A stretch of 35,276 nucleotides of DNA from Bdellovibrio sp. Its GTDB lineage: Bacteria; Bdellovibrionota; Bdellovibrionia; Bdellovibrionales; Bdellovibrionaceae. Positions 16,803 to 29,957 of this stretch are shown here, one piece after another. The position numbers were made by a program, and so were the translations under genes. The notes below the pieces were generated by a model that saw nothing but the letters and a program-made list of their open reading frames with translations, was not told where the DNA came from and made no database searches. How positions within the stretch are numbered: the first letter of the stretch is position 1; each line of letters opens with the position of its first letter. Location: NCBI GenBank assembly GCA_014376935.1, contig JACMQO010000019.1, positions 1 through 35,276 of the forward strand, given 5' to 3'.

Positions 16803-17327
16803 ATGTCAGTAGTAAAACAAAAAGACGAATCAAAAGAGTGGTACTTAATCGGTATAACAACCGGCTTAATTATCACGATGAAACATTTATTGGTGAATCT
16901 TTTTAACAAAAAGAAAATGATCACTTTAAATTACCCTGAAGAGAAGTATGAGTACTCTCCACGTTTCAAAGGTAACCACGTATTAACCGTAAAAAAAGAC
17001 GGATCAATCCGTTGTACGGCATGTATGTTATGCGCGACAAATTGTCCGGCTGAATGTATCACGATCAAAGCCAGTGAACATCCAGATGCTCAGGTTGAAA
17101 AATACCCGATCAGCTATGAAATCGATATGCTTCGTTGTGTATTCTGTGGTTTCTGCGAAGAAGCGTGTCCGGTGGATGCAGTTCGCCTAGGCCCTGAATG
17201 GCAAACTCCAGGGTTGAACGGTTCAAACTTTACATACGACATTAATCACTTAGCGTATCGCCCAGCTTTAAAAGGCGGAGTCGCTTCGATCGTTGACGAT
17301 CAAGATCGTCACAAAGCGGGTATTTAA
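16803..17327 (+). CDS. nuoI: NADH-quinone oxidoreductase subunit I
   Basis: A 174-residue ferredoxin-like subunit carrying clusters N6a and N6b between NuoG and NuoB. The two motifs are Cys71-x2-Cys74-x2-Cys77-x3-Cys81-Pro and Cys112-x2-Cys115-x2-Cys118-x3-Cys122-Pro. The N-terminal amphipathic segment (ITTGLIITMKHLLVNLF) fits its position at the membrane surface. TAGGAG precedes the ATG. Last gene of the operon: a strong terminator follows 58 nt downstream, so nuoH, J, K, L, M and N are not part of this transcript. Confidence 0.95.
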   Translation: MSVVKQKDESKEWYLIGITTGLIITMKHLLVNLFNKKKMITLNYPEEKYEYSPRFKGNHVLTVKKDGSIRCTACMLCATNCPAECITIKASEHPDAQVEKYPISYEIDMLRCVFCGFCEEACPVDAVRLGPEWQTPGLNGSNFTYDINHLAYRPALKGGVASIVDDQDRHKAGI

Positions 17328-17384
17328 GGTTTAAGAAGTTACCAGCTCACTTTTGGTAAGGCGCCTAGTCAATAATACTTAAAG

Positions 17385-17409
17385 AAAGGGATCGAAAGAT
17401 CCCTTTTTT
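17385..17409 (+). terminator. Intrinsic terminator of the nuo operon
   Basis: Stem AAAGGGATC (17385-17393) and GATCCCTTT (17398-17406) around a GAAA tetraloop, followed by T to 17409. The stop codon of the convergent gene (17408-17410) overlaps its T-tract. Confidence 0.95.
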
Positions 17410-17833
17410 ATTGACCATTGCCCTCAGAAGAAAAGCTTTCCATTACTTTTAAAATTTCTTTCAATTCTTTTTTCTTTGTCGTTTTTAAGGTGTTCGCGGC
17501 TTTGATATAAAGACTTTTATTTTTACTGAAGCTTTTTGCTAATATCTGCACTCCCGTTCTAGACGGGTCACCGTCAACAGGGTCTTCCAAGATAATCAAG
17601 GTCAAAAATGCATTTTGTACCAGTGGCAAATCCATTTTTTCATCTAAATCGATTGAGCTTAAAGTTTGAATATCATCGATCACCGTACCCTGCAGGGTTT
17701 TCGCCTTTTGTGCCGTGTAATTTGCTAACCGAATCGATAAAGAAGATCTGTCTGCTTTTTCTTTTAAAGATAATTCTTTTGCGAAAGATAAAGAGCACAT
17801 TGCAAATGTAAAAGCTAAAATTAATTTTTTCAT
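17408..17833 (-). CDS. Small exported protein of unknown function
   Basis: A 141-residue protein with a signal peptide (MKKLILAFTFAMCSLSFAKE, cleavage about after FA-K). The mature part is mostly predicted helical and charged (Lys/Asp/Ser-rich) with no cysteine and no domain I recognise. Its ATG overlaps the stop of the upstream SH3/peptidase-like gene as ATGA, so the two are translationally coupled and may work together in the periplasm. Confidence 0.7.
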   Translation of the reverse strand: MKKLILAFTFAMCSLSFAKELSLKEKADRSSLSIRLANYTAQKAKTLQGTVIDDIQTLSSIDLDEKMDLPLVQNAFLTLIILEDPVDGDPSRTGVQILAKSFSKNKSLYIKAANTLKTTKKKELKEILKVMESFSSEGNGQ

Positions 17834-28411: not shown

Positions 28412-29242
28412 TTAGCTTAACAATTTTAATGCTAGCTGATTCGTTTGATTCGCTTGCGCTAATGTCGCAGTACCAGCTTGTAAAAGCACAGTGTTACGAG
28501 CCATCTCAGAAGAAGCTTGAGCAATATCAGTGTCGCGGATACGTGAATTCGCTGCTGATAAATTCTCTTCAGTGACCGCTAAGATGTCTGTTGTCGTTGT
28601 TAAACGATTTTGTAGGGCACCTAAGTTTGCGCGCATTCCGTTAATTCTAGTTTGGCTTTCATCAAGTAAAGCTAATGCAGATCTTGCGCCATCTTTAGAC
28701 AAGAAGTTCACGTCTTGCATTCCTAATGATTCTAACGTCGCTACATTTTCAGCCGCGTTGAATTTGATGACATCATTTTCAGTTGCGTTTGAACCCACCT
28801 GAAAGTCAAATGTTGGCGTTGTTCCATCTAATAGTTTCGTTGAATTCCATGATGTTGTATTGGCGATACGATTCATCTCAGTCTTTAACTGTTGAACCTC
28901 TTTATCGATAAATCCACGTTCACGGTCACCGATCGTATCAGAAGCTGCTTGGATACCAAGCTCACGTAAACGTGTGACTACGTTTGAAACTTCGCTTAAT
29001 CCACCCTCTGCCGTTTGTACTAATGAAATACCATCATTCGCATTACGACGAGCTTGAGCCGACGATTTAATTTGTGCTTTCATGTTTTCAGAAATTGCTA
29101 AACCAGCAGCATCATCGGCTGATTTGTTGATACGGCTACCACTTGATAGCTGAGCCATTGAATTGGCCATTTGGCGTTGACTGCCGATAAGGTTACGTTG
29201 TGCATTAATTGCAGAAATATTTGTTGTTACTCTCATTCCCAT
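28412..29242 (-). CDS. fliC: Flagellin
   Basis: A 276-residue filament subunit, exported through the flagellar type III apparatus (no Sec signal). N-terminal D0/D1: MRVTTNISAINAQRNL ... AQLSSGSRINKSADDAAGLAISENM and NDGISLVQTAEGGL. C-terminal D1/D0: GALQNRL, EENLSAANSRIRDTDIAQASSEMARN and a hydrophobic end ANQTNQLALKLLS. The central variable part is very short (about residues 140-185). GGAG lies 7 nt before the ATG at 29242. It has its own terminator, an unusually long structured leader and a sigma-28-like promoter (separate entries). Other flagellin copies are common in this group but none is in the window. Confidence 0.97.
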   Translation of the reverse strand: MGMRVTTNISAINAQRNLIGSQRQMANSMAQLSSGSRINKSADDAAGLAISENMKAQIKSSAQARRNANDGISLVQTAEGGLSEVSNVVTRLRELGIQAASDTIGDRERGFIDKEVQQLKTEMNRIANTTSWNSTKLLDGTTPTFDFQVGSNATENDVIKFNAAENVATLESLGMQDVNFLSKDGARSALALLDESQTRINGMRANLGALQNRLTTTTDILAVTEENLSAANSRIRDTDIAQASSEMARNTVLLQAGTATLAQANQTNQLALKLLS

Positions 29243-29257
29243 TTGAAAACTCCATTT

Positions 29258-29278
29258 TTATTTAAATATGTTATTCAT
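29258..29278 (-). CDS. Six-codon mini-ORF in the flagellin leader
   Basis: ATG at 29278-29276 reads MNNIFK and stops with TAA at 29260-29258. A near-perfect ribosome site GGAGGAG (plus 29287-29293) stands 8 nt upstream, stronger than the GGAG of flagellin itself. Only 15 nt separate its stop from the flagellin start, so terminating ribosomes could reinitiate. Translation is not proven; the GGAGGAG could also just serve as a standby site. Confidence 0.4.
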   Translation of the reverse strand: MNNIFK

Positions 29279-29408
29279 ATTTTTTTCTCCTCCGTGAAGT
29301 TGTTTGAAGTCTGGCATCCGAGCCTGACCGGCTATAACTGTATCTTCCTTAAATACGTTCGATCGTCCTTAAAAATCTTCCTTGAAAGCCTCCTTGAAAT
29401 GGTAAATG

Positions 29409-29445
29409 AGAACACTCATGTGTTCTAAGAGACATCCTGCCTCTT
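29409..29445 (-). promoter_or_regulatory. Two back-to-back hairpins at the 5' end of the flagellin leader
   Basis: In RNA sense (minus strand) the first hairpin (plus 29445-29427) has a 7-bp stem AAGAGGC/GTCTCTT and the loop AGGAT. The second (29426-29409) is AGAACAC/GTGTTCT with loop ATGA, directly abutting. A GGA displayed in a short hairpin loop is the known preferred site of CsrA. Four AAGGA motifs follow between 29395 and 29346 (plus-strand TCCTT at 29391, 29379, 29366, 29346). Together they suggest post-transcriptional control of flagellin. Confidence 0.6.
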
Positions 29446-29465
29446 TGATTTATTTGTGTAGTTAC

Positions 29466-29492
29466 TAATCGACGTATTTTTGATCTTCTTGA
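29466..29492 (-). promoter_or_regulatory. Sigma-28 (FliA)-like promoter for flagellin
   Basis: On the minus strand TCAA-N15-GTCGATTA (plus 29489-29492 and 29466-29473). This fits the sigma-28 consensus TAAA-N15-GCCGATAA with exact spacing, 3 of 4 and 6 of 8 matches. Start would be near 29458, giving a leader of about 215 nt. Confidence 0.5.
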
Positions 29493-29620
29493 CGGGATGT
29501 TAGAATAGAAAATACGAAAAAATATTATTTTCTCACTGTTCTAGATGGGGCTTCAGGCTTGGTTTTCAAGACGGTAGTCCACGTCTTAATTCGTATGACT
29601 AGTCGCAATCCAGTCGTGAT

Positions 29621-29911
29621 CTAGTCAATTTCTTGAAAGCGACAAAGGGCCATAGAACCACTTAGCGCGTATGATTTTTGTTGCGTGGTTTGTAGATGTG
29701 GATAGGTCGTTAATCCAAAGGTGCACGTTACATCTTCACGGTGAAAATGCGAACACTCTTCGCATGAAAAAGGCAAAATATATTTATTGTAATCAGAGGC
29801 TAAAATGGATTCTTTTTTCATCGACGGTCTAATTCTAGGGGCCGTCTTTTTTGAACGCGTTTGGTCGTTAGTTTCAGTTTGTTGAATCGGCTTAATTTTT
29901 TCAGTGACCAT
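29621..29911 (-). CDS. Small Cys/His-containing protein, possible zinc-binding
   Basis: A 96-residue protein. The N-terminal half is polar and basic (KKTAPRIRPSMKKES). The C-terminal half has CEECSHFHREDVTC and later a Cys in ALCRFQEID; with the two His (HFH) this could bind a metal, forming a small zinc ribbon-like fold. No signal peptide. The start was chosen at ATG 29911 with AGGA 7 nt upstream, rather than an in-frame TTG at 29917. It is divergent from clpB, 46 nt away, and upstream of the flagellin leader on the same strand. Inverted repeats (29596-29602 with 29621-29627) overlap its stop. Not recognised as a named family. Confidence 0.62.
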   Translation of the reverse strand: MVTEKIKPIQQTETNDQTRSKKTAPRIRPSMKKESILASDYNKYILPFSCEECSHFHREDVTCTFGLTTYPHLQTTQQKSYALSGSMALCRFQEID

Positions 29912-29957
29912 TGACAATTCCTAGTTAGAGCTCATCTTTAATAGTGAGGTAACGCGA

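Follow-up and report, generated by a model that had tools for sequence, protein, structure and literature searches.

Within the 35,276-nucleotide stretch of DNA analysed here (the window), a fliC5-type flagellin gene on the minus strand is preceded by a leader of ~218 nt that, judging from its sequence and its relatives, is most likely under CsrA–FliW control in the manner of hag and flaA, as an elaborate version with multiple sites. CsrA flagellin leaders are already known as a kind (Bacillus, Campylobacter) while the architecture found here is new: the leader is deeply conserved, belongs to an abundant flagellin of the filament, exceeds hag and flaA in its number of CsrA-type sites and includes a conserved mini-ORF. 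It would join flagellin feedback and mini-ORF coupling, two CsrA mechanisms known only separately in the literature consulted for comparison. In the life cycle of Bdellovibrio-like predators a motile attack phase alternates with a growth phase without motility, and the leader makes post-transcriptional control of this switch directly testable in B. bacteriovorus HD100; in the literature mentioning both Bdellovibrio and CsrA, we found no work on CsrA in these predators.

The flagellin gene and its leader

The gene and its leader comprise the following features, given in window coordinates.

29466..29492, minus strand: sigma-28 (FliA)-like promoter, TCAA-N15-GTCGATTA; from sequence, with GTCAAG and CCGAT boxes kept in orthologues
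29427..29445, minus strand: hairpin 1, AAGAGGC-AGGAU-GUCUCUU, GGA in the loop; from fold and orthologue comparison
29409..29426, minus strand: hairpin 2, AGAACAC-AUGA-GUGUUCU, not conserved; from fold and orthologue comparison
29346..29395, minus strand: four AAGGA motifs starting at 29395, 29383, 29370 and 29350; from sequence, orthologue comparison and pattern search
29308..29329, minus strand: hairpin 3, GGUC-A-GGC-UCGGAU-GCC-A-GACU; from fold and a 47-orthologue alignment with covariation
29287..29293, minus strand: strong Shine-Dalgarno sequence of the mini-ORF, GGAGGAG, doubling as a GGA site; from sequence and orthologues
29258..29278, minus strand: mini-ORF ATGAATAACATATTTAAATAA (MNNIFK*), its stop 15 nt before the flagellin start; from a single-rule ORF search and orthologues
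29250..29253, minus strand: Shine-Dalgarno sequence of flagellin, GGAG, doubling as a GGA site; from sequence and orthologue comparison
28412..29242, minus strand: flagellin, fliC5 orthologue, 276 aa; from Pfam Flagellin_N and Flagellin_C and 73% identity to the HD100 copy

Both published fliC5 RT-PCR primers match the HD100 orthologue without mismatch and the flagellin gene is divergent from the ClpB gene in the window as in HD100, which together identify it as fliC5 (bd3052). FliC5 is reported to form a large part of the B. bacteriovorus filament (PMC2791853), and deletion of fliC5 leads to shorter flagella and slower swimming (PMC3464611). The 3.27 Mb draft genome, of which the window is contig C81, has eight flagellin-type matches and is Pseudobdellovibrio-type; relatives within the genus include records titled Pseudobdellovibrio sp. 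and 'Bdellovibrio sp. qaytius'.

The original prediction described a sigma-28-like promoter with exact 15-nt spacing, and this is present: on the minus strand, TCAA at 29492-29489 and GTCGATTA at 29473-29466 are separated by exactly 15 nt. For comparison, the published B. bacteriovorus FliA consensus is TTAAG-N16-CCGATA (PMC3627812). The prediction also held that the gap upstream of flagellin is not empty but contains a structured leader, in agreement with the conservation of its parts and with a fold more stable than that of shuffled sequences (-45.1 versus -35.9 kcal/mol, z -2.4). A long-range pairing in the window fold contacts the AUGG before flagellin; conservation of this pairing was not seen. 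Searches with Rfam 15 covariance models, at gathering and relaxed thresholds, gave no credible match to the leader.

The four AAGGA motifs, predicted to lie 12-20 nt apart, were recovered with spacings of 12, 13 and 20 nt; dinucleotide shuffles contain a mean of 0.96 such motifs (24 of 2000 reach four). GGA triplets number 9 against a mean of 5.8, a modest excess which 64 of 2000 dinucleotide shuffles reach. Taken alone, this figure would suit an account in which an AT-rich gap merely contains purine-rich or Shine-Dalgarno-like GGA motifs and chance hairpins, but such an account is contradicted by conservation, a stronger test than these counts, and by covariation over many genera (below) and is extremely improbable.

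Two further elements lie upstream of the promoter. Window positions 29540-29592 (GAATTAAGACGTGGACTACCGTCTTGAAAACCAAGCCTGAAGCCCCATCTAGAAC) are conserved in L042-L045. Between clpB and the flagellin promoter there is also a 98-aa cysteine-containing frame with a TTG start (CEECSHFHREDVTC; 29621-29917, minus strand), which has no Pfam match; similar DNA is found in most genus orthologues.

Conservation of the leader across relatives

A fliC5 orthologue with the leader was found in 12 of 14 genomes of the genus; in G001 and G008 the best match is another flagellin paralogue. All 12 orthologues keep the promoter, hairpin-1 stem, array, hairpin 3, mini-ORF and flagellin Shine-Dalgarno sequence. Elsewhere in the family, Bdellovibrio included, the orthologue has a related, longer leader, in which a first hairpin (often with an AGGA loop) is followed by a GGUCA-loop hairpin, the block GAAAGGAGGGCCUUCAAGGAUGA, a variable insert and hairpin 3, and then by a Shine-Dalgarno sequence, the mini-ORF, a second Shine-Dalgarno sequence and flagellin. 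The leader is also clearly recognisable in L174, L176 and L178, which belong to another family of the order, and one genome has two leader copies (G081, L180). Searching the 141 genomes of the order with a model of the Pseudobdellovibrio leaders (R1, 165 positions) gave matches in only 23; since the central part of the leader is different there, nearly all Bdellovibrio escaped it, and the distribution was instead taken from orthologous upstream regions.

Two abutting 7-bp hairpins, the first with AGGAT in its loop, had been predicted and were found at 29445-29427 and 29426-29409. The hairpin-1 stem occurs within the genus as GAGGC/GUCUC, GAGAC/GUCUC and GUAGC/GCUAC, and is still kept in L048, L051 and L052, where the loop GGA is replaced by AGA or UGA. 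Other genera have AGGA-loop first hairpins with differing stems (GGUUG-AAGGAA-CAACC, GGAUCC-AGGA-GGAUCC and GGAUCG-AGGA-CGAUCC). Hairpin 2 varies among genus orthologues and is absent from L048, L051 and L052.

Hairpin 3 was absent from the original prediction, yet it is the most conserved CsrA-type hairpin of the leader. In a gap-free alignment, its loop reads UNGGAN with invariant GGA in 47 of 47 segments, although these were chosen by a loop motif containing GGA, so that the invariance, unlike the covariation, is partly built in. The set leaves out L128, L134, L136, L141 and L153, five orthologues of one genus with a shifted GGA hairpin of the CGCA-AUGGA-UGCG type. Each of the 45 distinct sequences forms the inner three pairs, in which G-C/A-U exchanges occur (18 at one pair); the outer pairs vary widely among the 47 segments. 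Overall, the 47 orthologues have 63 cells with two-sided changes compared with 29 in shuffles, with the limitation that many sequences come from one genus and cells are not independent events. The covariation score is 0.417 versus 0.185 in shuffles, and the signal is lost when the partner is shifted by 1-3 columns. When hairpins 1 and 3 are taken jointly in the genus alignment (A4), 96.9% of cells pair (87.9% in shuffles), with two-sided changes in 7 cells (2.4 in shuffles).

The first two AAGGA motifs are family-wide (GAAAGGAGG..UUCAAGGANGA) and the last two occur only in Pseudobdellovibrio. Of the 23 stretches that match the array pattern in 84,980 genomes, ten come from Bdellovibrio-type records and every one of these fits a Pseudobdellovibrio orthologue; the remaining 13 belong to unrelated taxa at roughly chance expectation, which indicates that the four-fold array is a Pseudobdellovibrio elaboration. 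The expectation that stems and GGA motifs would be conserved in relatives stands, with covariation, apart from the variable hairpin 2, the hairpin-1 loop GGA of three orthologues and the restriction of the last two AAGGA motifs to Pseudobdellovibrio. The claim that GGA sites are more numerous than in hag or flaA applies in full only to Pseudobdellovibrio. 

The GGUCA-loop second hairpin present outside Pseudobdellovibrio has no GGA and a strongly varying stem (L107, L100, L096 and others), and lies ~150-300 nt upstream of flagellin; a factor other than CsrA may recognise it. Because other genera have this hairpin and long variable inserts, part of the leader appears to serve another purpose, and one could suppose that the whole owes its conservation to a different RNA-binding protein, to export-linked translation or to RNA stability rather than to CsrA. 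We consider this quite unlikely, since what stays constant across taxa is the CsrA signature of GGA in hairpin loops and A-rich single strands, and since CsrA, FliW and a further RNA rich in GGA-loop hairpins all occur in this lineage.

Other flagellin paralogues have leaders of their own. The fliC1-type paralogues (L036, L037, L055, L151, L158) have a different long conserved leader (GCCGAAAGGTA...AACGTGTAC...GGAGGTC), and the paralogues L034, L054 and L066 have a common short leader with AACCAAGGAAAGG and UCA-CGGA-UGA.

A conserved mini-ORF before flagellin

The strongest ribosome-binding site of the leader, CGGAGGAG, precedes the mini-ORF rather than flagellin, a feature missing from the original prediction. 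We applied one rule to all sequences (a purine-rich site, a start codon, 4-10 codons and a stop before flagellin) and found a mini-ORF of 4-9 codons in 61 of 61 leader-keeping orthologues from at least two families of the order, 59 of them with ATG; this count is not blind, as the orthologues were chosen by similarity of leader and protein once the sequences were already known. The rule was satisfied by 1.9% of shuffled sequences and by 1 of 31 long window ORFs, namely the fliC5-type flagellin itself. An exception is the probable relative L152, which keeps the promoter and a degraded first block without a mini-ORF. The distance from the mini-ORF stop to the flagellin start is mostly 12-33 nt (3 nt in L128 and L153). 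The encoded peptides drift (MNNIFK, MKLIT, MKNKY, MELKT), for which reason we rejected the peptide as a sensor of particular codons; translation rather than its product seems to be kept.

By analogy with E. coli iraD, flagellin is probably coupled through a CsrA-blockable mini-ORF. There, as established experimentally, CsrA represses a short upstream ORF coupled to iraD (PMC5574718). Both RNAs have several CsrA sites, predicted in our case, and in both one of these covers the Shine-Dalgarno sequence that serves a short ORF ahead of the regulated gene (PMC5574718); 61 of 61 leader-keeping fliC5 orthologues have such an ORF with a CsrA-type site. The upstream stop overlaps the next start in iraD, whose ribosome-binding site is sequestered (PMC5574718), whereas the window has a gap of 15 nt, and the fliC5 leader has a flagellin target, an ORF of 4-9 codons and FliW in the genome.

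With a gap of 12-33 nt and its own Shine-Dalgarno sequence, flagellin could also be translated independently. CsrA control would then operate without coupling: the mini-ORF site would be a ribosome landing or standby site for high flagellin output, and CsrA would directly occlude both ribosome-binding sites. Nearly all orthologues keep the GGAG or GGAGGA Shine-Dalgarno sequence of flagellin, overlap-type coupling would call for a shorter gap and the peptide sequence drifts, all of which fit this arrangement. A pure standby site, however, needs neither a start codon nor an in-frame stop, yet all 61 orthologues keep both, and we judge the uncoupled arrangement unlikely. Conservation of GGA at the two ribosome-binding sites proves nothing on its own, because GGA is also the Shine-Dalgarno core.

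Mini-ORFs also precede other flagellin paralogues (L150, L121, L129 and L144, encoding MVMTK*, MQFRGG*, MLKQR* and MLKLT*), accompanied in L150 and L121 by a single GGA-loop hairpin, so the module is not unique to fliC5.

CsrA, FliW and proposed regulation

The original prediction proposed checking the genome for csrA and fliW, and each is present in a single copy, in a flgL-csrA-fliW cluster on contig C86; the HD100 order is flgK, flgL, csrA, fliW. Among 141 genomes of the order, 132 have csrA and 118 have fliW. The 76-aa CsrA carries the family domain, and its best sequence match among solved structures is a carbon storage regulator (5dmb chain D), aligned through residue 74 and including the C-terminal extension, the part of CsrA contacted by FliW (PMC7652899).

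The fliC5 leader thus shares with hag and flaA the presence of csrA and fliW, a loop GGA on a compensatory stem, a GGA at the ribosome-binding site and, from the alignment to 5dmb chain D, a CsrA with the C-terminal extension. In the available text on C. jejuni flaA, the leader is likewise that of a sigma-28-transcribed flagellin mRNA, with ANGGA hairpin loops, one GGA over the ribosome-binding site, stems backed by compensatory changes, and csrA and fliW in the genome (PMC4894983). According to the same text, the flaA leader is 45 nt long with two hairpins and no mini-ORF described (PMC4894983), whereas the leader here is ~218 nt, and longer in Bdellovibrio, with 9 GGA and a mini-ORF; CsrA binding is demonstrated there for flaA (PMC4894983) and predicted from sequence for fliC5. 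B. subtilis hag similarly has an upstream CsrA site and a site over the Shine-Dalgarno sequence, FliW as protein antagonist and a CsrA with the C-terminal extension, but only two sites and no mini-ORF described, and csrA follows fliW in B. subtilis and precedes it here (PMC6529632, PMC7652899).

We regard it as fairly probable that the leader is a CsrA translational switch of a sigma-28-transcribed fliC5-type mRNA, with mini-ORF coupling and relief by FliW. Transcription would start from the sigma-28 promoter, and CsrA dimers would occupy the GGA sites of the hairpin-1 and hairpin-3 loops, of the unpaired AAGGA array and of the GGAGG core at the mini-ORF ribosome-binding site. Hairpin 3 is located 26 nt before that site, so one dimer could bridge both. 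Bound CsrA would keep ribosomes off the mini-ORF, and with the flagellin start 12-33 nt past the mini-ORF stop, flagellin translation would probably fall along with it. At low cytoplasmic flagellin, FliW would remove CsrA, closing the feedback loop as in Bacillus hag.

A possible CsrA-sequestering function and a second GGA-rich RNA

The multi-site array suggests that several CsrA dimers can bind, as on sponge RNAs. Like CsrB/RsmZ-type sponges, the leader combines several GGA-loop hairpins with unpaired AAGGA sites; unlike them, it belongs to an mRNA. The C. jejuni flaA leader also titrates CsrA, according to the available text (PMC4894983).

Ten genomes of several genera have a conserved GGA-rich RNA in the gap that separates flgI from the next flagellar gene, a few kb before csrA-fliW (L187:5196-5515, minus strand, or G000:C86, about 17195-17514; HD100 499,375-499,581 in L186). 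The HD100 copy is the published APsRNA1. RNAs of this type contain 7-11 GGA, many in loops of short hairpins (for example, GUUUCAGACAC-AUGGAC-GUGUUUGAAAC, GAUCAC-GGA-GUGAUC and GUGCA-GGA-UGCAC), with 2-5 GGA in loops versus 0.5-1.0 in shuffles, and have no Rfam match. In sequence, the APsRNA1-type RNA looks like a CsrB/RsmZ-type CsrA-sequestering RNA.

Tentatively, the fliC5 mRNA might have a dual function, combining the CsrA-gated mini-ORF switch with uptake of several CsrA dimers alongside FliW and APsRNA1; we hold this possible but doubtful. If true, attack-phase flagellin transcription would release other CsrA targets, and one group of organisms would have a three-part CsrA control circuit of protein, small RNA and mRNA.

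In HD100, at 561,854-563,081 (L182), a flagellin-like ORF (562,130-562,954) has the published APsRNA3 and APsRNA4 on either side, and APsRNA3 may be the 5' part of the leader of that ORF.
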